NCBI GenBank assembly: GCA_022402525.1
Contig: JAKRSB010000101.1
Location: 1 to 64,000 of the forward strand
Direction: 5' to 3'
DNA from: Thermosynechococcaceae cyanobacterium MS004
GTDB taxonomy: Bacteria; Cyanobacteriota; Cyanobacteriia; Thermosynechococcales; Thermosynechococcaceae
Length of the DNA stretch: 64,000 bases
The notes under the pieces were generated by a model, which saw only the letters and a list, made by a program, of their open reading frames with translations, was not told where the DNA came from and did not search any database. Shown here piece after piece: positions 5,490 to 24,756 of the stretch. Every line of letters starts with the position of its first letter. Position 1 is the first letter of the stretch. The translations under genes were made by a program, and so were the position numbers.

Positions 5490-7865
5490 ATGAATAACCC
5501 AGACTCTCAAGTAAAGGGTCAAGACTCTCAAGTCAAGAGCATGAATGAGAGCAAGCTCAAAAAGAATGTAGGCTTGAATCGACTTCTCCATCTCCTGATT
5601 GTTGAAGACGTTGCTCAAGATGTAGAGCTGATTTTACTAACGCTTGAAAGCGCTAACATCGAGTTTACCTATGACAGCGTTTCAACGGCGACTGATTTTG
5701 AATACTGCCTAGATCATCACGTCTATGATGTGGTTTTATCAGACTATCGACTGACCAACTTTAACGGCTCAGAGGCGTTTAAGGTTCTAGAGCGTTCAGG
5801 AAAAGAGATTCCCTTTGTTTTAATTACGGGGAGCCTAGGCGAAGAATCTGCCGTCGAATTTATTAAGGCGGGGATGACCGACTATGTTTTGAAAGATCGG
5901 CTCTTTCGTCTGCCGATGGTTTTACAGCGCGCTTTAGATGAGTTGGAGCTGCGCCATCAACAAAAAGCCGCGATCGCACAAATCCAGCAGCAGGCATGGC
6001 GGGAAACCATCATTAATCGCATTGGTCAATCTATGCGCGAAACACTGGTTTTAGAAGATATTCTGCAAAGGATGGCAGATGAGCTTCACACTGCGCTTCA
6101 GCTCAGTCGCTGCCTCATTTTTCAGCCCAATTCTAATGATCAGCTTTGCATCACTTTTGTGAGCAGCCTTACGCCTGACAAATCTAGTCTTCTCGATCAA
6201 CACTGCCCATGGTTGAACCACTTTAAGGATGTTTTGGCCCAGGCCAAGCAAGTCGCGCTCAACACGATTGATTCAAGCTTGCCCTCGGAGATTCAGGAAG
6301 CGGCGGCTGTTTACTCTCTTCACTCTCTTTTGCTTACGCCGCTTTACTATCAGCAAACGTACCTTGGAGCGATTAATCTGCACATCTGCGACCAGCCGCG
6401 AGAATGGTCAGAGCATGAGTTGGCCTTAGTAAGGGAGATCGCCAATCAGTGTGCGATCGCGATCCATCAGGCAAAACTCTATCAAAATGCCCAAATAGAG
6501 ATAGCCGAACGTAAAAAAATGGAAGGTAAACTCCGCCATGATGCCCTGCATGATGCGCTGACAAACCTTCCCAACCGAACATTAATTTTAGACCGTCTGC
6601 ACCATGTCTTGAAGCGCTTCCAGCGAGATGCTCATCCTTCCTCTGCTCAAGCGCCAAATAAATTTGCCGTTCTCTTTTTAGATCTTGATCGGTTCAAAGT
6701 TATAAACGACAGCCTTGGACATATTGCTGGCGATCAAATGCTGCAAATGGTGGCACAGCGATTGAGTGCGGTACTTAGAGCCGGAGACTCCCTGGCCCGT
6801 TTGGGGGGAGATGAATTTGTGGTCTTGATTGAAGGCATTCAGGACTTGAGCGATGCGATCGAAGTTGTACATCGCATCCATGAAACGCTCAAAAAACCTA
6901 TGGCTTTAGATAGCCATGAAGTGACCGTAGGAGCCAGCATTGGTATTGTGTTTAGTGCAGCCCACTACACTCATCCAGCCCAGCTTTTACGAGATGCCGA
7001 TACAGCAATGTATCGCGCTAAAAGTAAGCAGCGTGGTTCCTACGAGGTATTTGATACCTCCATGCACTTGCAGGTGATGCGCCAGCTTCAGCTCGAACAC
7101 GAACTCCGCCATGCAATTGAGCATCAAGAACTGACGCTTCACTATCAGCCGATGACAAGCCTTAATTCTAAGCAGATTTTGGGTTTTGAGGCACTGGTGC
7201 GCTGGCAGCATCCTGAACGTGGGTTAATCCCTCCCAACGACTTCATTTCTATTGCAGAAGACACTGGCTTAATTATTCCCATTGACCTATGGGTATTGCG
7301 AGAAGCATGCCAGCAGCTGAGCAAGTGGCAGGCTTGCCTGCCCGGTCACCACCCCTTGTTCATGAGCGTCAATTTTTCAGGACAGCAGTTTTTACAATCT
7401 AATTTGATGTCCCAGATTGATCAAATTTTGAGTGAGGTGAATCTTGACCCTCGCCAATTAAGGATTGAGCTAACAGAAAGCGTTCTGATTGAAAAGACGA
7501 AGGTTGCAACCGAAATCTTGAACCAGTTAGTTGCACGCCACATCCAGGTCGCCCTAGATGATTTTGGGACAGGCTACTCTTCCCTCAGCTATCTGCACCG
7601 CTTTCCAATTCACACCCTAAAAATTGATCGCTCATTCATTTCACCGTTGGGCAACAACCCAGAAAATAGCGAAATTGTTAAAACTATTGTCAATTTGGGT
7701 CTCAATTTAGGTTTAGAGATCGTGGCTGAGGGGATAGAAACACCTGAACAACTTCAGTTTCTTGAAGAACATCACTGTCAAATTGGGCAGGGATACTACT
7801 TCTCCAAACCCTTAGAAGCAAAAGCGGCTTTCGCGTTGCTCAATCAGCAGACGAAGATTCTTTAG
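5490..7865 (+). CDS. REC-GAF-GGDEF-EAL cyclic-di-GMP turnover protein
   Basis: A 791-residue bifunctional-type signalling protein. It has a receiver domain (about 35-160, acceptor Asp in VLSDYRL), a GAF domain (about 185-340), a diguanylate cyclase domain (about 350-515, intact RLGGDEF near 436) and a phosphodiesterase domain (about 535-785). The EAL domain keeps FEALVRW near 566, LTES, DDFGTGYSS, KIDRSF and VAEGIET, so both catalytic sites look intact. Which activity dominates cannot be predicted; phosphorylation of REC and a ligand on GAF probably set the balance. The first ATG has no clear Shine-Dalgarno, and an in-frame ATG at codon 18 is an alternative. Between the two lies a direct in-frame duplication (DSQVKGQ/DSQVKS), one of many such repeats in this window. 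Confidence 0.93.
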   Translation: MNNPDSQVKGQDSQVKSMNESKLKKNVGLNRLLHLLIVEDVAQDVELILLTLESANIEFTYDSVSTATDFEYCLDHHVYDVVLSDYRLTNFNGSEAFKVLERSGKEIPFVLITGSLGEESAVEFIKAGMTDYVLKDRLFRLPMVLQRALDELELRHQQKAAIAQIQQQAWRETIINRIGQSMRETLVLEDILQRMADELHTALQLSRCLIFQPNSNDQLCITFVSSLTPDKSSLLDQHCPWLNHFKDVLAQAKQVALNTIDSSLPSEIQEAAAVYSLHSLLLTPLYYQQTYLGAINLHICDQPREWSEHELALVREIANQCAIAIHQAKLYQNAQIEIAERKKMEGKLRHDALHDALTNLPNRTLILDRLHHVLKRFQRDAHPSSAQAPNKFAVLFLDLDRFKVINDSLGHIAGDQMLQMVAQRLSAVLRAGDSLARLGGDEFVVLIEGIQDLSDAIEVVHRIHETLKKPMALDSHEVTVGASIGIVFSAAHYTHPAQLLRDADTAMYRAKSKQRGSYEVFDTSMHLQVMRQLQLEHELRHAIEHQELTLHYQPMTSLNSKQILGFEALVRWQHPERGLIPPNDFISIAEDTGLIIPIDLWVLREACQQLSKWQACLPGHHPLFMSVNFSGQQFLQSNLMSQIDQILSEVNLDPRQLRIELTESVLIEKTKVATEILNQLVARHIQVALDDFGTGYSSLSYLHRFPIHTLKIDRSFISPLGNNPENSEIVKTIVNLGLNLGLEIVAEGIETPEQLQFLEEHHCQIGQGYYFSKPLEAKAAFALLNQQTKIL

Positions 7866-8204: not shown

Positions 8205-9344
8205 TTAAAGACCTTCTAAATCAGCCAAGACAGCGGCAGCAGTTTGATAGCGACGATTGATCGTGGTGCGCGTCATTTTCTCTAAAATTCCGGCAAGCTT
8301 TGGGCTAACCTTTGCGTAGTCTCGCCAACTGTATTCTCCAGTTATTGACAGCGGCAGACGGCTTGGGGCAAGCCCTGTAATCGCCTGAATCGCAATGACA
8401 CCTGCTGAGTAAATATCGCTGCTGGGGACGGGCTGACCCATCATTTGCTCGTAGGATGTGTAGCTGGCAGTGCCGACCGCAACGGTCATCATGGGCTTAG
8501 AGTCTTCCTCAGGATTCCATTCTTTAGCGGCACCAAAATCAATCAAAATGAGGTGGCTATCTTTTTTGCGGCGGATAATGTTGGAAGGCTTGATATCGCG
8601 ATGGATAATCTGAAACTGATGAATGGCGTCTAAGCCCCGTAAAATTCCGGTCAACAGCTCAATGATCTGAAGTTCTGAGAGGGGACGTCCTTCTACGATC
8701 TCCTTATCCAACGGATGCCCCACGATGTACTCCCGGATGAACCAAATTTCCTGCTCATCTTCGAAATAGCTCAGCAGTTTAGGTATGCATTCTAAGGTCT
8801 TGAGCTTTTCCAGAACGCTGGCTTCTCCCTTAAACAGGCGTCGAGTGGTTTGTAGGTCTCGGTCAGCGTCGGGTTGGGGGATAAAGTGCTTAATGACCCA
8901 GAGGCTTTTGGGGCGGGCGGTCAGGTCTTCCGCTACGTAAGTTTTGCCAAACTTACCGGAGGCCAACATCTCCAGAAGGCGGTAGTGGTCTTTAAAGTGT
9001 CCTAGAGAGGAGGCTTGCGGTGAGGCTTGCGAGGAATCTTGTGGCGAATCTTGTCGTGAACCTTGTGGTAAATGGAGGCTGGGGGAGCTGTGAGGCGTGG
9101 ACGCGATCGCATCTGCTGATCTAGGAGCCTCGTTGGCGGGTAAGGCTCCGGTTTTTCTGGAGGAGTGGGAATGCCAAGGCCTCCACCCCAGAAGCAAAAA
9201 ACCGCAAAGACCCAGACCCCCGATCGCAGGCAGCAGCAGCAGGGAGGGAAGCTCGATGATCGCAAACAGCCAGACCAAGCCTGCCGTTAGCCCACCCAAG
9301 CTGGCCCACACCACGAGCTGAAATAAAATGCTGCGATCGCGCAA
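8205..9344 (-). CDS. Membrane-anchored Ser/Thr protein kinase
   Basis: 379 residues. Two hydrophobic segments (about 8-30 and 33-53) precede a Ser/Pro/Gln-rich linker with SQASPQAS-type repeats and then a Hanks-type kinase domain (about 120-378). Seen: glycine loop LASGKFGKTY, ATP-binding K152, catalytic H248-R249-D250 with N255, and D269 of DFG. All catalytic residues are present, so it should be active. It is the last gene on the minus strand after the two RiPP exporter genes, 100 bp downstream of the second ABC gene, so read-through from that operon is possible. The start is uncertain: this call uses a TTG, no in-frame ATG lies upstream before a stop, and the membrane anchor would be lost with an internal start. 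Its link to peptide export is inference only. Confidence 0.85.
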   Translation of the reverse strand: MRDRSILFQLVVWASLGGLTAGLVWLFAIIELPSLLLLPAIGGLGLCGFLLLGWRPWHSHSSRKTGALPANEAPRSADAIASTPHSSPSLHLPQGSRQDSPQDSSQASPQASSLGHFKDHYRLLEMLASGKFGKTYVAEDLTARPKSLWVIKHFIPQPDADRDLQTTRRLFKGEASVLEKLKTLECIPKLLSYFEDEQEIWFIREYIVGHPLDKEIVEGRPLSELQIIELLTGILRGLDAIHQFQIIHRDIKPSNIIRRKKDSHLILIDFGAAKEWNPEEDSKPMMTVAVGTASYTSYEQMMGQPVPSSDIYSAGVIAIQAITGLAPSRLPLSITGEYSWRDYAKVSPKLAGILEKMTRTTINRRYQTAAAVLADLEGL

Positions 9345-9444
9345 GGGGTCGTCCTCAAACCGTTGGATCTTGATGTGTCGTCTGGCTATTTTCTCACTGT
9401 ATCAGAGGGATAAAACGGGATAAAACCCCAAAAGCTGATGACTT

Positions 9445-12400
9445 CTAAAGCTGTTGACTGGCCATAAGCTGACTAAAGACCCCAGCCTGCTGCATGAGCC
9501 CATCAAAGGTTCCTTCCTCCACCACCCGGCCGGCCTTCAGGACATAAATACGATCGGCCTGACGAATGGTGCTGAGACGATGGGCAATCAAAATACGGGT
9601 TACGCGCAGCTTCTCCAAACTCTCACTCACGATCGCCTGAGTACGGTTATCTAGAGCGCTGGTGGCCTCATCCAGCAGCAATACCCTGGGCTGAAGCGCT
9701 AAAGAACGGGCAATGAGCAAGCGCTGGCGTTGCCCCCCCGATAGGTTGCCACCACTTTCACTGATCATGGTGTGCATCCCCATCGGAAAAGTCTGAATAT
9801 CTTCTGCCAGTCCCGCACTCTGGGCAGCAGCCCAGGCTTCATCCATTGTCAGCAGCGCACCAGCGGCAATATTATCAAAAATGCTGCCGGCACTGAGCTT
9901 TCCGTTTTGCATGACAACGCCCATCTGCCGCCGCACAGCCTGGAGGTTAAGGCTTGCAAGATCCTGCCCATCAAAGGCAATTTTGCCGGAGAGGGGCGTT
10001 TCAAACCCCAGGAGTAGCCTCAGAATTGTGGATTTGCCGCTGCCCGATGGCCCTACGAGGGCGATAAATTCTCCTGGTTCCGCCACAATAGTCACGTCTT
10101 CTAGAATCAGCGCACCCTCTTCGTGGTATCGAAAGCTGAGATGGTCTAACTTTACCCGTCCCGTTAGGCGGCCTGGGTCGGCTTTGGTTTCATCAATTTC
10201 CAGCTTAGCTTCTAAAATTGGCTTGGCGCGTTCCCAGAGCGTCGTGACTTCCAAAATGGTCAGGAGTGAGTTGCTGAGATTGGTTGCGCCCCCCACAAAG
10301 CTGCCAAAGGCGACATTGAAGGCCAAAAACGTCCCGATATTAAGTGCTCCAGTCGTTAACGCCCCAGAATTTAACGCCCCAGCATTTCCCTGAACGTCCG
10401 CAAGCTGGCTGGCTGCAAACCAAAAGATCGCAATGGAGCTAAAAATAGGCAGCACTTCATTGAATAAAAGCAGGCCATCGGACAGGGTGGACTGCTTGAG
10501 GGTGAGTCGCTGCTGGTGTGCGTATTTCTTGCCCCAGTGGGAGAAAGCCCGCGCCTCTGCTCCCGCAACCCGCAGTTTTGCAATGCCAGAAATGAGCTCC
10601 ACCATCAGCCCAGTGATTTCTCCCTGGAGTCCCTGAAGCTGGCGCACGAGGTTGAAGATTAAGACCCCGATGGTGGTGGTGACGCCAATGGACAGCAGGG
10701 CGACCCCTAGGGCGATCACGGCTAAGGCGGAGCTGTAGTAAAACAGCAGACCCAAGTTGAGCAATGCAAAGAAACTGCTGAGGATGGTTTGTAGGGTGGT
10801 GCCCGTGAGCTGACGGCGGATTTGATCGATCGCCGAAATTCTGGACTCTAGATCGCCCGTCGCATACTGACGCAGGAAAGGGACTTCCACATTCAGGACG
10901 CGATCCCAGATGGCGGCGCTGGTTTCGGCATCGGCTAGGGTCTCAAACCGCAAAATGGCGAGGGCTTGGGTAATGCGAAAAAGTAGGGAACCAAACATTG
11001 CCGCGAGTAGCCCAAGGCCAACCTGAATCATCAGCCCTCGATTGGCATCCGGAATGGCGTCGTTGATCAAAATGGCGGTGGCTTGGGGCGTGATCATCCC
11101 TAGCAAGGTGACGGCCACAATGCTGAAGCCCATTAGCCACAGGTCATGGCTGCGCTTGCCTAGGGCAAACTTCAATAGGTCAAGGGCGTTGAGATGGGTC
11201 GGCGGGAGCGATCGGTACAGGGTATAGGCGACGGGGGAGAGCGCTTCGGCCAACCTGGGGGTGAGCCTGCGCTGGGAGCGCTCTACAGGGTCAAAGAGCA
11301 GATAGGTTCCTTCGGTCGTGGGGAGCAAGGCCACGGGCTGATCGTCTTCTGCGCGGAATGCCACCAGTGCCCCGCCATCCTGTTGCCACCAGTGCCCGCG
11401 CAGCAGTACACGGCGCAGCCTAACCCGCGAAGCACGGGCGATCGCCTCTAGGGGCACCTTCAGTTTTTTCAGGTTTTCGGACTTTGCGGGTTCTAAAATT
11501 TCAATGCCGAGCGATCGCCCTACAGCACGGGCCGCCGTCAGAAGTGGACTGCCCTCTCGGTAGGTTTCCGCTAGATCGGGGGTGAGCACTTCTGCTAACT
11601 CGCCCAGGGTATCGCCGAGAGACTCCAGGCTCATGCGCTTGCGTTCGCGGAAGCGGATATAGGCTTCTAGCTGCTCTTGCTGCTCTAGGCGCTCCAGAAA
11701 GTCTAGAAAGAAAGACTCCATGTGGGCAAGTCCCGATAAAAACGCAGCCTGATCCGGCAGATCATGACTTGCCACCACCTGAAGCTCCACATTGTCCAGG
11801 GCCTCTACCCAAATTCCGCTAATGGGAAACCAGTCTGAGTCTGGACGAATCAAAAGTTCGGCCAGCCCAGCCCAAGCCAGTTGCCCTGCCTGTACCTTCA
11901 GCCACAGCACCACGCCACGCCGTGCCTGAAGGCTTTGGCTTTTCTTGAGGGAAAACTGGCTTTGCTCTGGCCCTTGGGTCTGGAGTGCGAGGGTGGGAGA
12001 ACACTGCAGAACGGTCTGGGCAAGGGGAGCGGTAAACTTCCCCAGGGTTTCAATCCAGCGCTCTAACCCTATCCAGTGCTTTTGTTGGGTGTTTATTGGT
12101 TGGGTGTTTATTGGCTGGGCGCTTATTGGTTGGGCGCTTAAAGGGGGTGCTGTTTGCGGGTCGGACAGTGGGCAAATGGTAGAGGGCTGAACGGCGATCG
12201 CCATCAGAATAAGCTGCTGACGGCCTGGGGTGGGGGACACCCCACAAAACAGCTCTCCGGACTTGAGGGTAAAAAGATAGCGTCGATTGCCTGCTGGCTC
12301 TCCATCTTTCAGAATGACTGCAAAAATTGAGAGTTCTCCCCGCTCTACTCGCCAGAGCCGCACTTCGGTCAGCAGTATGGAATCATTCAGCTTGAGCACA

Positions 12401-12573
12401 AGCGACGATGGGTCATCTGCTGGCTGCTCATGCTCCGGTGGCACCTGCGCTGGTTTTATGATCTTTTTAGCGAGATCGTCGGCCTCCTGAGCTTTAGCAC
12501 CGCGATCATCAGTACCGCGATCATCAGCACCACAATCATCTGTGCCGCAATCATCAGGCAGATTCTGGGTCAT
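9445..12573 (-). CDS. RiPP export ABC transporter, permease/ATPase (NHLM ABC2 type)
   Basis: 1042 residues, the partner half of a Nif11/NHLP-type peptide exporter. The first 440 residues are not membrane-like: a low-complexity Asp/Gly start (DDCGTDDCGADDRG), a beta-rich stretch (about 50-130) reminiscent of a cyclic-nucleotide-binding or cupin roll, and a charged helical part. An ABC transmembrane domain (about 455-745) follows, then an ATPase (about 790-1040) with Walker A GPSGSGKST, LSGGQRQRL, LLLDEATSALD and the H-loop IAHRLSTI. It lacks a peptidase, as expected for the second NHLM transporter. It begins 10 bp after the upstream exporter gene; a GAGGAG ribosome site lies beside that gene's stop, suggesting coupled translation. 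An in-frame repeat (QPINTQ) lies at about 155-170. Confidence 0.92.
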   Translation of the reverse strand: MTQNLPDDCGTDDCGADDRGTDDRGAKAQEADDLAKKIIKPAQVPPEHEQPADDPSSLVLKLNDSILLTEVRLWRVERGELSIFAVILKDGEPAGNRRYLFTLKSGELFCGVSPTPGRQQLILMAIAVQPSTICPLSDPQTAPPLSAQPISAQPINTQPINTQQKHWIGLERWIETLGKFTAPLAQTVLQCSPTLALQTQGPEQSQFSLKKSQSLQARRGVVLWLKVQAGQLAWAGLAELLIRPDSDWFPISGIWVEALDNVELQVVASHDLPDQAAFLSGLAHMESFFLDFLERLEQQEQLEAYIRFRERKRMSLESLGDTLGELAEVLTPDLAETYREGSPLLTAARAVGRSLGIEILEPAKSENLKKLKVPLEAIARASRVRLRRVLLRGHWWQQDGGALVAFRAEDDQPVALLPTTEGTYLLFDPVERSQRRLTPRLAEALSPVAYTLYRSLPPTHLNALDLLKFALGKRSHDLWLMGFSIVAVTLLGMITPQATAILINDAIPDANRGLMIQVGLGLLAAMFGSLLFRITQALAILRFETLADAETSAAIWDRVLNVEVPFLRQYATGDLESRISAIDQIRRQLTGTTLQTILSSFFALLNLGLLFYYSSALAVIALGVALLSIGVTTTIGVLIFNLVRQLQGLQGEITGLMVELISGIAKLRVAGAEARAFSHWGKKYAHQQRLTLKQSTLSDGLLLFNEVLPIFSSIAIFWFAASQLADVQGNAGALNSGALTTGALNIGTFLAFNVAFGSFVGGATNLSNSLLTILEVTTLWERAKPILEAKLEIDETKADPGRLTGRVKLDHLSFRYHEEGALILEDVTIVAEPGEFIALVGPSGSGKSTILRLLLGFETPLSGKIAFDGQDLASLNLQAVRRQMGVVMQNGKLSAGSIFDNIAAGALLTMDEAWAAAQSAGLAEDIQTFPMGMHTMISESGGNLSGGQRQRLLIARSLALQPRVLLLDEATSALDNRTQAIVSESLEKLRVTRILIAHRLSTIRQADRIYVLKAGRVVEEGTFDGLMQQAGVFSQLMASQQL

Positions 12574-12583
12574 GGCTTACTCC

Positions 12584-14836
12584 TCACGTCCTGCTCACTT
12601 CTTCCTCGACTTCACTGCGAATCAGGTTGGCATAAGCGCCAGGTTGCGCAATGAGCGTCTCGTGGGTGCCGCGCTGTACCACCTTGCCCTGCTCCAGCAC
12701 AATAATTTCATCGCAGTCGCGAATGGTGCTGAGGCGATGGGCAACCACGATGCAGGTACAGCCCCGACGGCGGATATTTTGAGCCACTTTTGCTTCCGTT
12801 TCGCCATCTAGGGCGCTGGTGGCCTCATCCAGCACCAAAATGGACGGGTTATTGACAAGGGCGCGGGCAATTTCGAGGCGCTGGCGCTGTCCACCGCTCA
12901 AATTCACGCCCCCTTCAAGCAGCACCGCGTCAAACCCCCCAGCCTGATCCAGCACCACATCCTCAATTTCGGCATCCTGACAGGCGCGCACCAGATTGAT
13001 ATCGGGAATCGTCGCGTCCCACAGGGTGAGGTTTTGGCGAATGGTGCCGGCAAATAAAAAAATGTCTTGGTCAATGAGGGCTAAGGATTCGTGGAGCGAT
13101 CGCCGCTGCACCGTGTCCCGTGGATGGCCGTCAAGTAAAATGGTGCCGTCCCAGGGGGCGTATAGGCCGCTAATGAGCTTTGCGACCGTGGATTTGCCAG
13201 ACCCGCTGCTGCCCACAATGGCTAGGCGATCGCCAGGGCTGGCTTGGAGGCTGAAGTTGGCGATCAGGGGTGGCTCGACAGGGTTGTAGCCAAAGGTCAC
13301 ATTTCGCAGCTCTAGGGAACCCTTGAGGCGAAAATCTGCCATCAGCGCGGTTTGTTCCGTCTCGGCACGCTGGGTTTCCGGATCCACGGGATTGATCAGC
13401 ACGTCATCTAGGCGGGTGAGGTCGCTTTCTAGCTCTTGGAGAGAGCTGCTAAGCCCCACTAAGCTGCCGATGGGTTCCAAAAAGCTGCCCGTTAAGCTCT
13501 GAAAGGCTACCAGCATCCCAATACTCAAGCCGCCAGAGATCACCTTGAAACCCCCTAAAATCAAGACCAGCAGGGTCGTGAGGCCAGAGAGCAGCGTGGG
13601 CAAAAGATTCAAGAGCTGGCTTTGGAGCCCTAATGCCTGCTGGGCATTTAGCGCCTTGGCTTGGTAGCCCCCCCAGCGACTAAAGAAGTCTGACTCTAGG
13701 GCAGAGGCTTTGAGGGTTTCAATGCTCATTAATCCAGCGATCGCTACCCCTTTCGCCTTTCCGTACTCCATGGCCAAACGCAGACTCGTATCCACCCGCT
13801 GCCGTGCCGCCCACTGCACCGCCACAAAATTGAGCAGGGCAAAGCAGACCACCATCAGCGTCAACCCCCAGTCGTACTGCCACATCACCAGGGCAAACAG
13901 CAGCATCACGATCGCATCAATCACCGTGGTGGTAATTTGGCCAGAAAGCAGTTGGGCTACTGAGTTATTGAGGCCGAGGCGGCTGGCAATTTCGCCTGCA
14001 AACCGCTGGGCATAGAACCCAATGGGTAGCCGCAGCATGTGCCAAAGAAGCTGCCCCGAAAACTGAATCCCCAGCTTGACCTGAAGCTGGCGCAGATGCT
14101 GAAGCTGAAGATATTTCAGGATGCCATTTAAGCCCGCCGTCAGCGCCATGCCGATGAGTAAAGGGCGCAGCCAGTCCAGCAGATTTTCGACCAAAATGCT
14201 GTCGACAAATACTTGGGTAAAGACCGGAATGGCTAGACGGGGCAGCACCAAGAGTAGTCCGGCAATCATGGCGTAGAGCAAGACCGTCCAGGAGCCCTGG
14301 AGGCGGCGGGAGAGCGCCCCCAAGGTGCTGGGCTTCCGGCCACCGCGCTGAAACTCTGGGCCTGGCTCTAGCGCTAAAACGACTCCCGTAAAGGCTGCGT
14401 CAAATTCGGCAGGCGTGACGGTGCGTGGCCCCGTGGCCGGATCGTTCAGGTAGATCTTCTCCTTGGTAAATCCTTCCACCACTAGAAAGTGGTTGAAATT
14501 CCAGAACACAATGAACGGACAAGTCATGGCTTGGAGAGACTCTAGGCTTTTCTGATAACCCTTCGCCAGTAGCCCAAACCGCCGTGCGGCCTTAACTAAA
14601 TTTGAGGCTTTACTGCCGTCACGGGAGATCCCGCAGGCTTGGCGCAGCTCCGGTAGCGGCACAATGCGGCCATAGTATCCGAGGATAATACCCAAGGCCG
14701 CTGCCCCGCACTCGACGGCCTCCATCTGCAGCAGCGTGGGAGTCCGCACTCGCTGACCTGACTTAAACAAAGACCAGAACCCAGATCTGACCCTAGCGAA
14801 AAAATGAGATTGAGCGGTACTCAGTGCTGCCAGCAT
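12584..14836 (-). CDS. C39 peptidase / ABC exporter (NHLM ABC1 type)
   Basis: 750 residues. An N-terminal C39 peptidase (about 30-155) with catalytic C43 (MEAVECG), H116 (NFNHFLVV) and D132 (LNDPATG) is fused to an ABC transmembrane domain (about 180-460) and an ATPase (about 505-740; GSSGSGKST, LSGGQRQRLEIARAL, LDEATSALD). Such proteins cut the leader after a Gly-Gly motif and move the mature peptide across the inner membrane. The precursor encoded at the head of this cluster has the matching Gly-Gly at residues 69-70. The next gene follows after 10 bp, and the membrane fusion protein precedes it. Peptidase and transporter roles are established for the family; the substrate is inferred from clustering. 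Confidence 0.95.
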   Translation of the reverse strand: MLAALSTAQSHFFARVRSGFWSLFKSGQRVRTPTLLQMEAVECGAAALGIILGYYGRIVPLPELRQACGISRDGSKASNLVKAARRFGLLAKGYQKSLESLQAMTCPFIVFWNFNHFLVVEGFTKEKIYLNDPATGPRTVTPAEFDAAFTGVVLALEPGPEFQRGGRKPSTLGALSRRLQGSWTVLLYAMIAGLLLVLPRLAIPVFTQVFVDSILVENLLDWLRPLLIGMALTAGLNGILKYLQLQHLRQLQVKLGIQFSGQLLWHMLRLPIGFYAQRFAGEIASRLGLNNSVAQLLSGQITTTVIDAIVMLLFALVMWQYDWGLTLMVVCFALLNFVAVQWAARQRVDTSLRLAMEYGKAKGVAIAGLMSIETLKASALESDFFSRWGGYQAKALNAQQALGLQSQLLNLLPTLLSGLTTLLVLILGGFKVISGGLSIGMLVAFQSLTGSFLEPIGSLVGLSSSLQELESDLTRLDDVLINPVDPETQRAETEQTALMADFRLKGSLELRNVTFGYNPVEPPLIANFSLQASPGDRLAIVGSSGSGKSTVAKLISGLYAPWDGTILLDGHPRDTVQRRSLHESLALIDQDIFLFAGTIRQNLTLWDATIPDINLVRACQDAEIEDVVLDQAGGFDAVLLEGGVNLSGGQRQRLEIARALVNNPSILVLDEATSALDGETEAKVAQNIRRRGCTCIVVAHRLSTIRDCDEIIVLEQGKVVQRGTHETLIAQPGAYANLIRSEVEEEVSRT

Positions 14837-14860
14837 TCCTGGAATCTAGGCTCCTCATAC

Positions 14861-14918
14861 ATCTGGTTAATAAAATCTGGTTAATAAAAATCTGGCTACT
14901 AAAAATCGGGTTAATAAA
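14861..14918. repeat. 14-15-bp tandem repeat overlapping the HlyD stop codon
   Basis: Four units of ATCTGGTTAATAAA (with small changes) start at 14861, 14875, 14890 and 14905. The last unit contains the stop codon of the HlyD-like gene (14911-14913, minus strand), and the array fills most of the gap to the C39/ABC exporter gene. Confidence 0.9.
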
Positions 14919-16389
14919 GTCCGGTCAGCTCGCGCAAAATGGGAAATACAAAGCTGATGGGCGCACGATCTTCGAGAGTGACCTGAGCCGTTGCATTGGT
15001 GCCGGGGGTGAGTTTGAGCTGAGGCCCCTGAGAGGAAGACCATTCGTAGCCTGTGGCGGTTTGGGGGTTGGCCTTAAGCTGGGCATACACTCCAATAAGG
15101 GGAGACGTGCCCAACGCCTGCACCACGTCTGCATTGCCAATCAGTGCGGTCATGTCCTGCTTGGTCATCGGAAACTCGGACACGGAGGTAACGGTAGCCT
15201 GGATGCCGCCAAATCGCTCGCGCTTGATGGTGGTGGGGGTAACCTGCATGGACATTCCTGGCCTAATTTTTTTGCCGTCCTGTATCGGAAAAAAGGCGAG
15301 CCCCTGAAGTTTTTCGGTTTGGGGGCTGGTGGCAATGAGTCCGAGGGGGGTGCCCGCCGCTACCACTTGGCCAACCTTGACGGGCAACTCCAGCACCTTT
15401 CCGGCGATCGCACTGCGAATTTGGCTTTGCTCTTTAAGCTGAAGCTGGAGCAGATTGAGCGATCGCCGGGTATCTGCAAGGGCGTTGGAGCGCTGTGCCG
15501 AGGCTTCCTGCTGGCGCTGCTGAATATTTTTGGCCTTGGTATCAAGATCTTGAAGCTGCCGCTGGAGATCATCCCGCTGAATTTGAAGGTCTAGGAGCCG
15601 ATTGCTGTCTTCTACATTGGTGCGCTCCACCTGCACCAGCCGCACCTGAAGCTGACTGAGCTGGCTTTCTAGCTCAGAAATGCTGCGTAAGTTACCCAAG
15701 TAGGTCTGTTCTGCTTCAAGGGCGGTGTCTTGGGTTAAGACACCCTGCTCTACTAGGCGTTTGCGATTTTCCCAGCGGGTCTTGAGCACCGAATCGAGCT
15801 GCTTTGCATCGGTGATTCGCGCCTTGAGGCTAATTTGCTGCTGGCGGACGGACTCAATTTCCTTAGATTTCAGGGCAGGGGTAATGGGTTCGAGGCGGGG
15901 GACGAGAATCCCCACATTGCCGATCTGTTGCTCCAGGTTGCGTCGCTGCTGCACCAAGGACTCTAGCTCTAGGCGATCGCGCTGTTGCTCTGTGGTTTCA
16001 ATGCGGTTGGTTTGCTGCTCTAGGGCCGCTAGCTTTGTCTGCTGCTGCTGAATTTGTTGCTGTAGCTCTGGCTGGTCAATCAGCGCCAGTAAGTCTCCAG
16101 ACTGAACCGTATCGTTTACCTTTACCCTGAGCTGACGCAGCCGACCCACGGCTGGCGACTGAATTTCGCGGAGTTGGTAGGGGTACACAAACACCGCCTG
16201 CGCCGAAATGCGGACAGGCACCTTTCCCCAGACGCTCCAGGCGATCGCCACGCCCGATAACCCGCCCAAGGTGCCCAGCAAGATCCAACTGCGGGGCTTC
16301 ACAACCTGCATGAGCTGGTCAAGCTGTTCTGGGGAAGAGAGCCGCTCTAGCGCTTCTTTGCGAAAAAGCTTGTCAGAGGGGTTTGTCAT
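14911..16389 (-). CDS. HlyD-type membrane fusion protein of the RiPP exporter
   Basis: 492 residues. A short cytoplasmic N-terminus and one membrane segment (about 35-54) are followed by a first lipoyl half (about 75-105), a long coiled coil (about 110-325, rich in Gln, Leu and Glu), the second lipoyl half (GKVLELPVKVGQVVAAGTPLG) and a beta-barrel C-terminus. This is the adaptor-protein architecture that bridges an inner-membrane ABC exporter to the periplasm or outer membrane. It lies between the cyclic-nucleotide-fold protein (47 bp gap) and the C39/ABC gene (74 bp gap filled by a tandem repeat), all on one strand. No TolC-like outer-membrane factor is encoded in the window, so one from elsewhere would be needed. 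Confidence 0.93.
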   Translation of the reverse strand: MTNPSDKLFRKEALERLSSPEQLDQLMQVVKPRSWILLGTLGGLSGVAIAWSVWGKVPVRISAQAVFVYPYQLREIQSPAVGRLRQLRVKVNDTVQSGDLLALIDQPELQQQIQQQQTKLAALEQQTNRIETTEQQRDRLELESLVQQRRNLEQQIGNVGILVPRLEPITPALKSKEIESVRQQQISLKARITDAKQLDSVLKTRWENRKRLVEQGVLTQDTALEAEQTYLGNLRSISELESQLSQLQVRLVQVERTNVEDSNRLLDLQIQRDDLQRQLQDLDTKAKNIQQRQQEASAQRSNALADTRRSLNLLQLQLKEQSQIRSAIAGKVLELPVKVGQVVAAGTPLGLIATSPQTEKLQGLAFFPIQDGKKIRPGMSMQVTPTTIKRERFGGIQATVTSVSEFPMTKQDMTALIGNADVVQALGTSPLIGVYAQLKANPQTATGYEWSSSQGPQLKLTPGTNATAQVTLEDRAPISFVFPILRELTGLY

Positions 16390-16436
16390 CGTGGTTTTTT
16401 AGAAGGGTTTGCCAGAGGGGTTTATCAGAGTGGGCA

Positions 16437-17021
16437 CTACTTTATATCCAGCCGATGCAGAATCCATTCAAAGCGAGAAGCAGCCAGGGCTAAGTCATCC
16501 AGTACATCGGGCGCAATTTCGTCTGCATCATAAATTCCGGCCTCCAGGGACGATAAACGACTCCCCGCAGCCTGAGCATTTAAGACCCGCAATCGACTGG
16601 ACAGAAATAGCGCGACCATTCGATAAAATCGAGCCGCAAACCCTAAGTCCGTACTCAGGTGACGCTTAAGTTGCGATCGCGGAATGGAGAGGACCCATGA
16701 TTCTTGGAGTGCCGTGACATTAGCGGAAGGCATTTGACTATCCACTATCGACATTTCGCCCACAATGTCCCCAGCCGTGAGCTGTGCCACAATCTGATAA
16801 TCAATGGGCTGACCAACGGGCTGCTCAATGGACGGCCCAACGGACGGCTGACTCACAGAAACACCAAACTGGCCCTCTAGGAGTAAGTAAAGTGCATCAA
16901 TGGGCTGTCCCATCCGCACCAAAGGTTTCCCCTTTGCAACCTTTACCTTGGAGCCAACCGCCAGAACCCAGTCAATATCGCTATCGCTCAGGGCACCCAG
17001 CGCAATCAGCACATTTCTCAT
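16437..17021 (-). CDS. Cyclic-nucleotide-binding-fold protein in the RiPP cluster
   Basis: 194 residues with one cNMP-binding-type beta roll (about 10-130) and a helical C-terminus, without a DNA-binding domain. The glycine/glutamate part of the phosphate-binding cassette is present (DIVGEM, G88-E89). The Arg that normally follows to hold the cyclic phosphate is missing: the equivalent stretch reads QMPSANV (97-102). Ligand binding may therefore be lost and the domain may act structurally. Proteins with this fold recur beside Nif11/NHLP-type bacteriocin transporters in cyanobacteria, with unknown function. A good AAGGAG ribosome site lies upstream of the ATG. A Pro/Gln repeat insert (about 58-72) lies in the beta roll. 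Confidence 0.85.
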   Translation of the reverse strand: MRNVLIALGALSDSDIDWVLAVGSKVKVAKGKPLVRMGQPIDALYLLLEGQFGVSVSQPSVGPSIEQPVGQPIDYQIVAQLTAGDIVGEMSIVDSQMPSANVTALQESWVLSIPRSQLKRHLSTDLGFAARFYRMVALFLSSRLRVLNAQAAGSRLSSLEAGIYDADEIAPDVLDDLALAASRFEWILHRLDIK

Positions 17022-17084
17022 TACTTTCTCCTTCGATATCCCTCGACACGCTTTAGCTGGATGGGAAAAATCGGTGGCACCGCC

Positions 17085-17175
17085 AATCGATAGCGCGGTT
17101 AATCGATAGCGCGGTTAAATGGCACTCATGTTAATGGCACTCATGTTAATGGCACTCATGTCAATGGCACTCATG
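17085..17175. repeat. Two adjoining tandem arrays (16 bp x2, 15 bp x4)
   Basis: AATCGATAGCGCGGTT occurs twice (17085-17116). It is followed by four units of AATGGCACTCATGTT (17118, 17133, 17148, 17163; the last incomplete). The final unit contains the stop codon of the radical SAM gene (17171-17173). Because the period is 15, a multiple of three, the minus strand reads as a small repeated open frame (see findings). Confidence 0.92.
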
Positions 17176-19387
17176 CCGTAAAGCTGCCGCTGAACTGAGG
17201 ACGGGACAAAGAAAGTTTATGCTGTAAAAACGCGCCAAAGGCACCTAGCACATGGAGCGTAACATCAGGATATTGCTTGTCCTCTGAGGTTCCGTCATGA
17301 ATGAGATGGCCCGTAGGGGCAATGTAGGCTTCGCCGGGTGCAATGCGAAGCTTCACGACTGGGTATTCTGGATACCGCTTCATAAAGGCATGGCCTGAAA
17401 ACAGGGTTCTGGACATTGCAGAGACTTGCCTGTCTGAAGTTACCCCAACGGCATTGAGTAAGGCTGGCCAGGGTAAATTAATGAATAAAAAATGGCGGTC
17501 TTCTTTGCCTAAATTTAAGCAGAATCGGCGCTGGGGAGGCAGATTTGCGGATTGATCCCAGCTATCAAGATGCAGCCCTAAGTAAGTCATTTTTGCCCTT
17601 TGCTGCTCTTGATTGTCGTTCTTGGTCAGGGTTTTTAGGTTTGGCGGAGCAGAGTACAGGGTAAAAATGCTAGGGCGGTAGTCTTCAAAATGGGCTTGAA
17701 GATAATGATGGATCTCTCGCATCATGGGATGAGCACTCAATTGTCCGTTTAACGGCAGACCCTGAGTTAGCTGTCGATCTAATGGCTGCCGATCTAATGG
17801 GTGCCGATTTAAAAACTGTTGTTCTGAGGGGTTCGGATTCCATCGGTCTTGAATCCCAAACCCTGCCAGATATGCTCTCAGAGGTTCAAGGATATAGTCT
17901 GGAATCTTTAGCACCGTAATGGCTAAGTCCAGTGCATTATTCTCGAAATCGACGAGAATTCTCTGCTCCTCTACCGTGGGCGATCGCCAAGGAGCCTGAG
18001 GCACCCGTGCCCCTGGATGATACCGAAGTCCATCGACCGGGCATTCCGTTGCGCCTGCTGTCCCCTGACTCAGCAGAATTCGATTCTCTCCACAATCGAG
18101 CGCTGAATGACCTGCACTTTGCGCAAACTGAATTTGAATGCCAGGGGATAGGGCGGCTAATTCATGGGTCGAGGGCATAGAGAGAGGGAGAGGGCGGATA
18201 GGGCACTGAATAACGCCAATCTCCTGAAGCCGTCGCTCAATATAAGACAACATCTTTTTTTCCACCCCACAGTCCAAAGGCTCCGTAGTCTGGTGTAGGA
18301 CACTTTCCTCCGCAACAGGATATCCATCACAGCTCCCAAAAAATCGACAACCATGACAGACCGCCGCCATTCTACGCTCAGCGGCAGTAATAGCCTTTTG
18401 GTGGGCTTCACTCAGCACAATGTCGCGCATGGATGACTCAAATAAATTGCCATGACGCCACCCTTCCTGATAGGCGTCCGCATAGCTAAATACATCCCCA
18501 TTGGTATTAATTAAATAGACATTCTCCCACTCCCGTTTGTGGTAGAAATTGGGCTGAGCCTCTGGTCGTTGGTGATGCATGACCTGCGCAATCCAACGGT
18601 TGAGCGGATCAATCTGAACCGACCCAGGCTGGGTGAGCACCAGCTCAAACAAAGCTTGAAAGGCAGACTCAACCTCGGCGGTTGAAAGCTCATAGTCTTG
18701 ATGCTGATTTTCAAAGGCTCCCTTGACCAGCGGCAAAATCCGAAAGGAATTCACCTTCAATGCTTCATAAAACCGATAGATTTGGGAAATATGGTCAACG
18801 TTCCGCTTTGTGAGGACGGTAATGCAGCCAAAGTCAACCTTATGCTGCTGCAAACGATCTAAATTGGCCAGCACCCGTGCTTGAGAATCTTCGCCTGCGC
18901 TGAAGACGCGCAGGCCTCCAAATAAATCAATCGATACCCCCACCGCATCAAACCCATGCTTGAGTAAATGAATCCGGTCTTCCGTGAGTACCGTCAGATT
19001 GGTTTGCACCGCATTTTTGACTGATAACCCACCCAAAATATCTCGCTGGCGCGCAAAGGTCTGCCAGTAAAATTCAGGGGGCAGCAGCAGGGCCTCTCCG
19101 CCTTGCCAGTCCAATTCAATTTCGACAGACTGGCCAAACTGACGGTAGTAGTCTGCAAGGTGGAGATACAGCTGATCTAGCTGATCCAGCGACATTGCCT
19201 CACGATCGCTCAGCTCAGCATATTCATAGCAGTAGCGACAGCGCAGATTGCAAAATTTAGAAACCTTGACCACAAAGTGTACTTTACGGACTTCAGGAGG
19301 CACTTCAATGGGTGCTTCAGCAGGCACTTCAACGGGCGATCGCGGTCTATCTCGTTGCTCATCCAGACGGGCTAGATTGGCGTTCAT
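17171..19387 (-). CDS. Radical SAM/SPASM-like peptide maturase B with extra C-terminal domain
   Basis: 738 residues. The radical SAM core (about 35-260) has the 4Fe-4S motif C46-x3-C50-x2-C53 (CNLRCRYCYEY) and the SAM-contact WQGGEAL. A short SPASM-like cysteine set follows (C344, C347, C353, C373), suggesting auxiliary cluster ligands. A variable linker (about 400-595, with LDRQPLDRQ repeats) leads to a C-terminal region conserved with its neighbour. That region holds GLHLDSWD (H606, D608), NLGKEDRHFLFI, and APGEAYIAPT ending in IHDGTS (H697). The HxD...H pattern looks like a non-haem iron facial triad, but this is inference. Its start overlaps the stop of the paralogue by 4 bp (ATGA), implying coupled translation. 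I know of no exact family name; peptide modification of the Nif11 precursor is the likely role. Confidence 0.9.
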   Translation of the reverse strand: MNANLARLDEQRDRPRSPVEVPAEAPIEVPPEVRKVHFVVKVSKFCNLRCRYCYEYAELSDREAMSLDQLDQLYLHLADYYRQFGQSVEIELDWQGGEALLLPPEFYWQTFARQRDILGGLSVKNAVQTNLTVLTEDRIHLLKHGFDAVGVSIDLFGGLRVFSAGEDSQARVLANLDRLQQHKVDFGCITVLTKRNVDHISQIYRFYEALKVNSFRILPLVKGAFENQHQDYELSTAEVESAFQALFELVLTQPGSVQIDPLNRWIAQVMHHQRPEAQPNFYHKREWENVYLINTNGDVFSYADAYQEGWRHGNLFESSMRDIVLSEAHQKAITAAERRMAAVCHGCRFFGSCDGYPVAEESVLHQTTEPLDCGVEKKMLSYIERRLQEIGVIQCPIRPLPLSMPSTHELAALSPGIQIQFAQSAGHSALDCGENRILLSQGTAGATECPVDGLRYHPGARVPQAPWRSPTVEEQRILVDFENNALDLAITVLKIPDYILEPLRAYLAGFGIQDRWNPNPSEQQFLNRHPLDRQPLDRQLTQGLPLNGQLSAHPMMREIHHYLQAHFEDYRPSIFTLYSAPPNLKTLTKNDNQEQQRAKMTYLGLHLDSWDQSANLPPQRRFCLNLGKEDRHFLFINLPWPALLNAVGVTSDRQVSAMSRTLFSGHAFMKRYPEYPVVKLRIAPGEAYIAPTGHLIHDGTSEDKQYPDVTLHVLGAFGAFLQHKLSLSRPQFSGSFTA

Positions 19388-21543
19388 ACCCTCCCTCCCA
19401 CCAGAACTCGATGAGGGGCAACCTGCTGCACTGAAAACCCAAAGTGTCCCGTAATATGGAGCGCCACATCTGGGTAGCGTTTACCGATTGAGGTGGCATC
19501 ATGAATCATGTTGTCTGTCGGCGCAATATAGGCTTCTCCTGGGGCAATGCGCAACTTAGCCACGGGGTAGTCAGGAAACCGTTCCATAAACTTTTGGCCG
19601 ATATGTAGCCCTCGATAGTCCCGGTAGATATCTTCTGGGTCTGATAAGCCAATCATCTGAAACATCTGAACTTGAGTGAGCGGAATGAACAGAAAATGCC
19701 GATCCTCTCGTCCTAGATTGATGCAGATTCGATTGCGAGACTGATGACGGCGGCGCAGCGGCTTTTTGTCCCAACTGTCGAGGTGCAGCCCTACAAACTC
19801 TCGCTCAAAGGGATTCATTTTCTCTTGGGTCACGGTTCGCAGCCCTGGCGACGCGCTGGCTAGACTTAAGATTTCCGGTGCCAAACCCTGCAAAGAATAT
19901 CGCTCTAGCTCAGCCCTGACATCTGCGAGCGTTTTTTCCCAGCGTGGATGGGTGGTGTGGGCGCGGTAATTCTCTTGGCTCAGATGATGGCGTGTGCCAT
20001 ATTCCTCAAAAATCTCGATAAAGGGGGAGATCACATCCTCAGTCAATCGAATAATGCCCAAATCAGAGCCGAGCTGCCATTGGCTGAGGTCGCTCAAGAG
20101 ATGAGGGGCACAAAGAGACTCAGCTTCATGGGGCGTTAGTTCTCGCCAAGGCTCTACTGGAACATAGGCCGCTGAAATATAGGTACTGCTGACTTGGGGG
20201 AGAGTTGATGCCTTACAAATTCCTGCACTGTACTGAACCCTTGAGGTTAGAGAGTCTGGGTCATAGCAGTAAAGCCTGACCGATGTCTCAGAAGAATAAG
20301 CGGGCAGTGGCTGAGCAGCAGGTTGAGCAACAGGTTGAGCAACAGGTTGAGCAGTAGATTGAGCCGCCGAAGCTGGAGACATGAGACGGTTGGTCACAGG
20401 GTTAATAATGCCTAGTGCTTTCAATCGTCTTTCAACAAAAGCCAGCATGGGGGCATCGATTGGGCACTGAGGCTGGTTATAAGAATCAAGTTTTTCCTCA
20501 GATTGTTGACCCTGAGCTTGATTATTTTCAGCGATCGAAAATCCACTACAGCTTCCATAGAAGCGACAGGAATTGCAGATTGATGCGGTTCGCTGCTCTG
20601 CTGCATCAATCACGGCTTGATGAACGGGACTATGAATGATGTCTGACAGCGGCGTCGTAAATAGATTGCCGTAACAAAACTCTGGCTCATAGGGGTCGCC
20701 GTCACTAAAAATATCTCCATTGGTGTTGACGACATAAACCGTCTCCCACTCTCGCTTGCTATAAAAAGCAGGTTTTGCGGCTGGAGTATAGTGATGAATA
20801 ATTTGCTTAATATAGGTTGAAATTGGCTCTATATTGATTGCGCTATTGCTGGTCAAGACGAGATCCACCAAACCTTTAAAGGCTTCTACAACTTCTTCGT
20901 TGGTGATTTCATAGCCTTGATGCTGGCCTTCAAAAGCACCTTTGAATAGGGGTAAAAATCTTACAGAGGAAATCTTTAGCCGCTCATAGAAGCGCATCAT
21001 TTCCTGAATTCGATGAATGTTTAATTGGGTCAGAACGGTAATGCAGCCAAAGTCAATATGTTGAGCACGAAGGATGTCTAGATTCTTGAGCACTTTGATT
21101 TGGGAGTCCATGCCAGAGCCATTGACCCGTAGTCCACCAAACAGATCGAGAGAAACACCAACTTTGTCAAACCCCTCGCTGAGCAGTCGAATACGTTCTG
21201 AGTCTAAAAGGGTTAGGTTTGTTTGGACTGTGTTGGAGATGTGGAACGGGAGATGACCAAAAATCTGATCCTGCTGGTCGAAAGTTTGCCAGTAAAAGTC
21301 AGGTGATATTACCAAAGGTTCTCCGCCATGCCAAATAAATTCAATATCAACAGGTTGATCAACCTGTTGATCAAATGTCTGATAGTAGTCAGCAATATGC
21401 TGATACATCTGAGTTAAGTGAGGTTGAGTAATGATCTCTCTATCGTTCAGTTCTTCATATTCATAACAGTAGCGGCAGCGAAGATTACAGAACTTGGAGA
21501 CTTTGACAACAAACTGAACCGCTCGATGATCGGCAGAAACCAT
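19384..21543 (-). CDS. Radical SAM/SPASM-like peptide maturase A with extra C-terminal domain
   Basis: 719 residues, a clear paralogue of the next gene. C19-x3-C23-x2-C26 (CNLRCRYCYEY) and the canonical WHGGEPL form the radical SAM site. C323, C326, C332 and C360 form a SPASM-like set. Residues 398-412 are an in-frame AQPVAQP repeat linker. The C-terminal part repeats the neighbour's pattern: GLHLDSWD (H587, D589), NLGREDRHFLFI, and APGEAYIAPT with H681 in MIHDATS. A strong AGGAGG ribosome site precedes its ATG. It lies 543 bp downstream of the precursor gene on the same strand and overlaps the second enzyme by 4 bp. Two paralogues acting on one precursor could modify different sites, or do successive steps; sequence alone cannot decide. 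Confidence 0.91.
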   Translation of the reverse strand: MVSADHRAVQFVVKVSKFCNLRCRYCYEYEELNDREIITQPHLTQMYQHIADYYQTFDQQVDQPVDIEFIWHGGEPLVISPDFYWQTFDQQDQIFGHLPFHISNTVQTNLTLLDSERIRLLSEGFDKVGVSLDLFGGLRVNGSGMDSQIKVLKNLDILRAQHIDFGCITVLTQLNIHRIQEMMRFYERLKISSVRFLPLFKGAFEGQHQGYEITNEEVVEAFKGLVDLVLTSNSAINIEPISTYIKQIIHHYTPAAKPAFYSKREWETVYVVNTNGDIFSDGDPYEPEFCYGNLFTTPLSDIIHSPVHQAVIDAAEQRTASICNSCRFYGSCSGFSIAENNQAQGQQSEEKLDSYNQPQCPIDAPMLAFVERRLKALGIINPVTNRLMSPASAAQSTAQPVAQPVAQPAAQPLPAYSSETSVRLYCYDPDSLTSRVQYSAGICKASTLPQVSSTYISAAYVPVEPWRELTPHEAESLCAPHLLSDLSQWQLGSDLGIIRLTEDVISPFIEIFEEYGTRHHLSQENYRAHTTHPRWEKTLADVRAELERYSLQGLAPEILSLASASPGLRTVTQEKMNPFEREFVGLHLDSWDKKPLRRRHQSRNRICINLGREDRHFLFIPLTQVQMFQMIGLSDPEDIYRDYRGLHIGQKFMERFPDYPVAKLRIAPGEAYIAPTDNMIHDATSIGKRYPDVALHITGHFGFSVQQVAPHRVLVGGRV

Positions 21544-22086
21544 ATGCTCCTCCTAAAAATCAGTAATGCCTGGAGTATTAATTAAAAAATAGAGCTGTAT
21601 TTAGATTGATAATGCTCATATAAATACTCGAATAGAACTACTTTAAGTTTTCTAGATCTTAAGTCAAGTAAGACGAAATTATTGAATTTTATCTTTCTAT
21701 GTTTCGTCGATTTTGAAATTGTCTTGAAATCGCATTTTGAAGACTTTTTTGGTCATCTAATTTATGAATTTGATCCTACTGATCTAACAAATTCAGGTCG
21801 CTATGGTGTCTTCTTCCGTCTTTTAACTCAATGCATATTGAGTTAATGCCTATTAAGCCAATGCATATTGAGTCAATGCCTATTAAGCCAATGCGCATCG
21901 ACTCAATATAGACGCATCCCAATTCTGTAAAGCTGCACCATGAAACAAAAGTCTCATGAAGAAGTTTTGCTTTGGCTTTATGGACATAAAGTCTTCAGCA
22001 AATGAGTAAAGGACTCAATTCACATCAGTGGGATGCGGCTCATGACGATGGTTGAATGTGATGTCTGAACAGTCCTGGATTAACCG
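21544..22086. repeat. Intergenic region with 30-bp tandem repeats
   Basis: 543 bp between the precursor gene and the first radical SAM gene. From 21829 to 21908 it contains a 30-bp unit (two full copies at 21829 and 21859 plus a partial third), each built of two related 15-mers around AATGCATATTGAGT and AATGCCTATTAAGC. The rest is AT-rich. I found no convincing second precursor peptide here and no perfect terminator hairpin, so whether precursor and enzymes share one transcript is open. Confidence 0.8.
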
Positions 22087-22530
22087 CTATGACTCACTAA
22101 CTAAGGATTGGAAGAGTTCTACCGCAGACACTGCTTCTGACTCTTCGTTTTCGCTAATGGCTTTGACGGGCTGAAAGGACTGTTGATTCACCCAGCTAGG
22201 GCCAGGAATTGTAAGTTTAAATTTGTCGCCAGATGCCTTCAGGTCGCCAATATTCGTATACCGGCTAAAGAAGTTTGTCTGTAATGCAATTTGGCTTAGG
22301 TTGCTGAATGAGCTAGCAGCGCCACCCACAACTCCATCTAGTGCTTCAGCAGAGAGTTCATCCCCACCCACAGCATCTAAATCAGCTTTGTTGAAAGAAA
22401 ATCCCTTTTCTTGCGCGATCGCAATCAATGCATCGGGGGAAGTTTTGACCAGGGCATAATTCAGTGCGCCCTGAAGTTCTTTGTCATTATAGACAGCTTC
22501 AAAAAACTGAGTAACTGATTCAGTAGACAT
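22087..22530 (-). CDS. Nif11-leader RiPP precursor peptide
   Basis: 147 residues. Residues 1-54 match the Nif11-type leader (MSTESVTQFFEAV, then a helical stretch and IAQEKGFSFNKADLDAV). A double-glycine site follows (LDGVVGG, residues 63-70), giving a predicted core of 77 residues from A71. The core has no cysteine, so thioether chemistry is excluded. It holds four aromatic-X-polar triads: F75-S-N77, F88-S-R90, Y91-T-N93 and W113-V-N115. The C-terminus (about 127-147) is acidic and helical and may be a follower. A GGAG ribosome site lies 7 bp before the ATG. It heads a run of minus-strand genes for two radical SAM enzymes, a C39/ABC exporter and HlyD, which fixes its role as their likely substrate. 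The mature product is unknown. Confidence 0.9.
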   Translation of the reverse strand: MSTESVTQFFEAVYNDKELQGALNYALVKTSPDALIAIAQEKGFSFNKADLDAVGGDELSAEALDGVVGGAASSFSNLSQIALQTNFFSRYTNIGDLKASGDKFKLTIPGPSWVNQQSFQPVKAISENEESEAVSAVELFQSLVSES

Positions 22531-23106: not shown

Positions 23107-23142
23107 AAAAAAAAAAGGATGCTTCTGCTTGCCAGAAGCATC
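23107..23142 (-). terminator. Strong intrinsic terminator
   Basis: A perfect 10-bp stem, GGATGCTTCT (23116-23125) with AGAAGCATCC (23133-23142), and a 7-nt loop. On the minus strand it is followed by nine consecutive T (A run at 23107-23115). It lies 30 bp after the stop of the repeat-rich secreted protein gene and should separate that gene from the RiPP cluster. Confidence 0.93.
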
Positions 23143-23172
23143 CCTATGCAAAGTATTTTTAGCCGTGGGAGC

Positions 23173-24558: not shown

Positions 24559-24756
24559 GGGGGTTTTCTCAGACAGTGAGGGGAGCTTGCCCACTGGGGA
24601 CTAGTTTAAAAGCGATTAAGTAGAAACGATTAAGCTGCAGGGGCAATTCGTTAATGACGCTTCGACCCTTCAGAAAGTTGCCCCGGTCTTGTCTATCTTA
24701 AGGATGATTTAGGAGGCTCACTTAGTGCTTCTTAGAGCTCCTTAGATCTGCATAGC

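Follow-up and report, generated by a model that had tools for sequence, protein, structure and literature searches.

A cyanobacterial Nif11-leader RiPP operon encodes two paralogous radical SAM enzymes fused to MicC-like oxygenase domains

Gene content of the locus

The DNA analyzed here (the window) is a stretch of 64,000 nucleotides from contig JAKRSB010000101.1 of Thermosynechococcaceae cyanobacterium MS004. Within it we identified a minus-strand run of genes, called from long open frames and from Pfam and NCBIfam model scores far above chance. Read 5' to 3', the run encodes a Nif11-leader precursor of a ribosomally synthesized and posttranslationally modified peptide (RiPP; 22087 to 22530), the radical SAM (rSAM) enzymes rSAM2 (19384 to 21543) and rSAM1 (17171 to 19387), a cyclic-nucleotide-fold protein (16437 to 17021), a HlyD-type membrane fusion protein (14911 to 16389), an ABC exporter with a C39 leader peptidase (ABC1; 12584 to 14836), a second ABC exporter subunit (ABC2; 9445 to 12573), and a Ser/Thr protein kinase (8205 to 9344). 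The two rSAM genes overlap by 4 bp, and the remaining genes are closely spaced, apart from a 543-bp interval behind the precursor. The kinase (PF00069; E = 2e-33), which a preliminary description of the locus includes in its range but does not mention, follows 100 bp downstream of ABC2 as a possible further member of the operon. A terminator-like hairpin with a T tract (23115 to 23145, minus strand; consensus match only) separates the operon from the gene upstream, and a search against Rfam yielded nothing useful. That upstream gene (23173 to 24594) encodes a secreted, Gln/Arg-rich, Sec-type repetitive protein with no family match, in which 114-bp repeats encode NNGWGQG-like units.

The NHLM export trio is complete, with HlyD (TIGR03794; 337 bits against a cutoff of 156), ABC1 (TIGR03796; 1112 against 853), and ABC2 (TIGR03797; 953 against 709) all scoring over cutoff, and motif-bearing segments of both the C39 and the ABC domain were located in ABC1. 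The cyclic-nucleotide-fold protein (PF00027) reaches 141.9 bits against the bacteriocin-transport-associated model TIGR03896, below its cutoff of 161, and matches only the C-terminal half of the model, the N-terminal half being absent. Family models confirm every member of the one-strand gene set given in the preliminary description. In its exporter trio, leader, and Gly-Gly site, the locus conforms to the NHLM/N11P arrangement (Haft et al. 2010, PMC2887384), in which TIGR03794, TIGR03796, TIGR03797, and TIGR03798 occur together; the clusters described there are, in contrast, paired with heterocycle (TOMM) or lanthionine machinery and not with rSAM-oxygenase fusions.

The Nif11 precursor

The precursor comprises 147 aa and matches PF07862 (E = 1e-11) and TIGR03798 (45.4 bits against a cutoff of 32.3). 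Its leader (residues 1 to 70; 22321 to 22530, minus strand) ends in LDGVVGG, so that the Gly-Gly pair ascribed to it earlier falls at residues 69 and 70. Both glycines are conserved at a related metagenome locus, L047, and with a TIGR03796 exporter gene in the same run they mark the probable C39 cleavage site. A genome search found one Nif11 gene, that of the window, and one TIGR03796 exporter over cutoff, likewise that of the window; precursor and exporter therefore very probably belong together, and further Nif11 precursors sharing the exporter are ruled out. An NHLP-leader search of the genome gave no match, but nor did its search control, so that the empty result does not argue for absence.

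The core region (residues 71 to 147; 22090 to 22320, minus strand) is devoid of Cys, which argues against sactionine or ranthionine formation. It aligns together with the leader to the L047 precursor (BLASTP E = 1e-18, 32% identity), and the two cores have in common SNLS, NF[F/W]SR, and GPSWV[N/K]Q, the latter two motifs placing an aromatic residue two positions ahead of R, N, or K. From this alignment, F88-S-R90 in NFFSR (22261 to 22269; NFWSR in L047) and W113-V-N115 in GPSWVNQ (22186 to 22194; GPSWVKQ in L047) emerge as candidate i/i+2 cross-link sites. Possible further sites are F75-S-N77 (22300 to 22308), where SNLS but not the F is conserved in L047, and Y91-T-N93 (22252 to 22260), which is not conserved there; all four are on the minus strand. 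Aromatic-x-[NDKR] motifs, one of three residue sets tried, occur four times in the core against 1.2 expected from shuffles (P = 0.0135). As a sign of cross-link sites this excess is suggestive and modest, and it is absent from the precursors of several relatives. A search for precursor relatives in the order returned nothing useful.

Two paralogous rSAM-oxygenase fusions

The two enzymes (rSAM2, 719 aa; rSAM1, 738 aa) are 42% identical over nearly their whole length and are thus paralogous, as had been proposed. They are, however, not plain radical SAM enzymes: each is about twice the normal length of a maturase, with an rSAM-SPASM part in the first ~390 residues and an oxygenase part in the last ~290. 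In rSAM2 the former (20380 to 21543; PF04055, E = 1.5e-12) carries the C19xxxC23xxC26 motif as well as C323, C326, C332, and C360. The CxxxCxxC motif and SPASM cysteines are present in the window enzymes, with the Pfam SPASM model itself just under cutoff. Both rSAM domains score far below the cutoffs of the named cyclophane maturase families (GrrM/OscB, XyeB, FxsB, YhhB, and AmcB), their best NCBIfam scores being to sulfatase maturase and DynA-like models. TIGR04064, which describes Nif11-like peptide rSAM maturases (cutoff, 518.7 bits), does not appear in the list of the 25 top-scoring models of either protein, which ends at ~30 bits. The best match among solved structures is the cyclophane synthase ChlB (9gmc for rSAM2).

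The AlphaFold model of rSAM2 contains two confident domains (mean pLDDT, 86; pTM, 0.62) joined by a linker (residues 398 to 411) with pLDDT below 50, so their relative placement in the model is uncertain. This linker is encoded by an in-frame 12-bp repeat (20312 to 20364), which, together with the overlapping split genes of several relatives, suggests a route by which the fusion could arise.

The ~290-residue C-terminal domain (rSAM2, 19387 to 20253; rSAM1, 17174 to 18100; minus strand) has no Pfam or NCBIfam match, ruling out a domain known to these collections, and neither protein contains an HExxH motif, ruling out an HExxH oxygenase. A profile of the domain gave one convincing match among solved structures, the alpha-ketoglutarate (aKG)-dependent non-heme iron oxygenase MicC (PDB 9vkm; E = 1.1e-48 over 284 columns). 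MicC is homologous over the whole domain with a conserved triad, although it is a stand-alone chain and only about 26% identical to the window domain. The HxD...H triad and an Arg (H587, D589, H681, and R615 in rSAM2) are invariant in 20 of 20 sequences, MicC included, and the diverged rSAM1 domain, which forms a long branch in the tree, keeps the triad as H606, D608, and H697. Modeled alone, the domain reaches a pTM of 0.85, and a fold search gave weak matches to aKG oxygenases, GriE and FIH among them (E about 4e-4, TM 0.37). Since 9vkm is missing among the Foldseek matches listed, MicC homology rests on the sequence profiles, and the fold supports the broad oxygenase class only. By homology and triad, the domain can thus be assigned to the MicC-type aKG oxygenases.

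Split relatives and descent of the fusion

The fused form is absent from all related loci examined, where the two domains are encoded by separate neighboring genes. The oxygenase gene overlaps or closely follows the rSAM gene at L062/L003, L063/L004, L019 (Calothrix), L032 (Bradyrhizobium), and L047. In the stretches inspected, the nearest enzyme relatives sit with small Sec-signal proteins and lack both Nif11 and an NHLM exporter, and none of the genomes examined shares the full gene order that the preliminary description had expected to be conserved. By the test set in the preliminary description, this counts in part against it; these results weaken the claim of a conserved cluster but not that of local linkage. 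L047, a metagenome contig, does have a Nif11 precursor, adjacent to an unfused rSAM and oxygenase gene (one enzyme pair), with no exporter in the 5 kb to either side. This cassette (L047:2622-6196, IMG/VR) is flanked by near-identical copies of a small gene (2622 to 2963 and 5852 to 6196, minus strand), an arrangement that resembles insertion into a mobile element.

In the rSAM tree the window enzymes group with L047 (support 83/72), and rSAM1 specifically with L047 (96/91). The sisters of this group are cyanobacterial, largely Nostocales-type, enzymes with Sec-signal precursors, and GrrM, OscB-like, and AmcB enzymes are split from the window clade with 100/100 support. Because the window rSAMs fall under all named cutoffs and stand apart from GrrM/OscB/AmcB with this support, their chemistry could differ. 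The oxygenase tree likewise unites both window domains with L047 (94/95); the rSAM1 domain has diverged fastest (branch length, 2.1), and L047 is also a long branch. Given that long branch, the trees are compatible with a single fusion that was later reversed in L047 as well as with two separate fusions.

An rSAM profile found one weak, distant match in viral_contigs, and phage and plasmid records yielded distant rSAMs only, save for a GrrM-oxygenase pair on a Nostoc plasmid. Two congeneric genomes lack the enzymes, which is weak evidence because these genomes are 76 to 82% complete.

The oxygenase family in other genomes

One scan of GTDB genomes recovered 28 oxygenase loci, and further searches added more. 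The family is rare, being found in 9 of 386 cyanobacterial genomes, a set that possibly does not include the species of the window. Leaving aside a Microcoleus-type group of seven loci, an rSAM gene adjoins the oxygenase at 27 of 30 loci, the exceptions being L030 (at the end of a 4-kb contig), L039, and L042. Several of these partners belong to or approach cyclophane maturase families, scoring over cutoff as GrrM/OscB (L023, L026, L029, and L034) or AmcB (L043), or lying nearest to YhhB below its cutoff (L088 and L089). Adjoining precursors carry WxN repeats (L023, L026, and L029), FDN/WDN repeats (Streptomyces), or YDK/YDR (L088 and L089). In the triceptides reported so far, Trp or Phe is cross-linked to an Asn, Asp, Arg, or Ser two positions later, and in the case of YhhB the link runs from Tyr to Arg (PMC11002830). 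With cyclophane-type rSAMs and aromatic-x-polar precursors beside it, the MicC-like oxygenase is best read as a predicted tailoring partner of cyclophane-type rSAMs in Cyanobacteriota, Pseudomonadota, Actinomycetota, and Bacteroidota as well as at the metagenome locus. This suggests that an oxygenase family without a name in NCBIfam and Pfam serves, in at least four phyla, to tailor peptides cross-linked by rSAM enzymes.

The association is not exclusive. On a plasmid of Methylocystis parvus (L075:7458-8471), a MicC-like oxygenase gene is found amid TonB/iron ABC transporter genes and a nitrogenase-component-like gene, a set suggestive of iron uptake, with no annotated rSAM. In the Microcoleus-type group (L009, L013, L020, L021, L024, L025, and L028) the oxygenase gene stands alone without an rSAM; at L009, L013, L020, L024, and L025 it is flanked on one side by a gene for a 220- to 320-aa protein with CTHCTHCTH (or similar) at its end and on the other by a TPR-sulfotransferase-like gene, possibly an uncharacterized cassette.

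Individual loci vary further. In Bacteroidota (L088:6996-11294 and L089:4806-8073), a YhhB-like rSAM gene has ahead of it a precursor of 72 to 82 aa ending in ...AYDKHDTFLKAAV or ...AYDRVDQFLRA and behind it two or three MicC-like oxygenase genes in tandem. In Leptolyngbya sp. PCC 7375 (L022:4785-9839), the GrrM-type rSAM gene is split by transposase-like insertions, its relative at L023 being intact. In Streptomyces sp. CC208A (L036:8786-10447), a single open frame of 553 aa covers both the FDN/WDN precursor and the oxygenase, which may be a fusion, a chance open frame, or a sequencing error.

Proposed pathway and alternatives

We favor, with somewhat better than even confidence, the reading that these genes form one RiPP operon in which bifunctional rSAM-oxygenases cross-link and oxidize a single Nif11 peptide before Gly-Gly cleavage and export. 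The Nif11 leader of the 147-aa precursor would be recognized by both sister enzymes. In each, the N-terminal rSAM-SPASM domain would join an aromatic residue to residue i+2, generating strained cyclophanes at F-S-R, W-V-N, and perhaps F-S-N and Y-T-N, and the C-terminal Fe(II)/aKG oxygenase of the MicC family would then oxidize, most likely hydroxylate, the same region, with sites or steps probably divided between the two enzyme copies. The exporter's C39 domain would cut after Gly-Gly, and ABC1, ABC2, and HlyD would export the product. The earlier idea of one modified, exported peptide is partly supported: the operon combines a Nif11 RiPP precursor with a dedicated exporter, and the pairing of this rSAM clade with Nif11 recurs in L047, but the enzymes are fusions and not plain rSAM proteins. 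The proposal is least secure on which cross-link forms and on what the oxygenase reaction yields. Counting against the proposal, there are two tandem enzymes for one precursor here where L047 has one pair, L047 shows no exporter in its flanking 5 kb, the excess of aromatic-x-[NDKR] motifs is modest, and the nearest relatives accompany Sec-signal precursors instead of Nif11.

The window enzymes resemble triceptide/3-CyFE maturases (OscB, XncB, MscB, and YhhB; PMC11002830) in that an rSAM-SPASM protein lies beside a small precursor with candidate aromatic-x-polar motifs and in that relatives of their oxygenase adjoin GrrM/OscB, AmcB, and YhhB-like members. They differ in forming a separate clade below every family cutoff, in the Nif11 leader, and in the fused oxygenase. 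It is conceivable, if unlikely, that the rSAM domains carry out other chemistry (epimerization, spliceotide-like Tyr excision, or other C-alpha chemistry), while the oxygenase modifies the same peptide on its own. The window rSAMs reach the cutoff of no named cyclophane family, the best NCBIfam models are sulfatase maturase and DynA-like, and cyanobacterial spliceotide and epimerase rSAMs use Nif11/nitrile-hydratase leader peptides (PMC11002830). The oxygenase's partners elsewhere are nevertheless cyclophane maturases, the best structural match is a cyclophane synthase, the conserved core motifs pair an aromatic at i with R/N/K at i+2, and the Cys-free core speaks against part of the chemical range.

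We regard it as improbable that the C-terminal domain lacks oxygenase activity and persists as a structural or peptide-binding remnant, leaving rSAM chemistry as the only reaction. The fast evolution of the rSAM1 copy and the weak fold matches outside MicC would fit such a remnant, but both copies, like every aligned homologue including MicC, retain the Fe-binding H, D, and H along with the Arg. Least of all do we expect precursor and exporter to be paired while the rSAM-oxygenases modify another substrate, for example a Sec-exported protein elsewhere in the genome: close relatives do pair with small Sec-signal proteins, and a repetitive Sec-type protein is encoded next upstream, but in a single co-directional run the enzymes are placed between the precursor and the exporter, L047 independently couples the clade to a Nif11 precursor with the same core motifs, and the terminator-like site cuts off the upstream gene.

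Fused rSAM/aKG-HExxH proteins of the ChlB type have already been reported (Morishita et al., Nat. Chem. 2024, cited in PMC12636437; ChlB structures 9gm3 and 9gmc) and likewise combine a cyclophane-type rSAM and an aKG-dependent hydroxylase domain in one polypeptide. Here the oxygenase comes from a different family. As the window proteins lack HExxH and carry a MicC-like domain with an HxD...H triad, their fusion appears to be independent. We tentatively propose, at a little under even chances, a second, independently evolved bifunctional rSAM-oxygenase, tandem duplicated, that would cross-link and then hydroxylate a Nif11 peptide. Within an oxygenic phototroph, a single chain would combine a reaction sensitive to oxygen with one that requires it. 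If true, cyclophane-type rSAMs would have been fused twice, to different oxygenase folds, which would mean that this coupling is repeatedly favored. The proposal is specific enough to test, naming the substrate of a bifunctional RiPP enzyme and predicting the sites.

Tandem repeats in the window

With 50 arrays over its 64 kb, the window is dense in short tandem repeats (units of 9 to 30 bp), at 7.8 per 10 kb versus 2.8 per 10 kb in 17 other loci. Several lie in frame within operon genes, for example at 12084 to 12140 and 12499 to 12557, in addition to the linker repeat of rSAM2.
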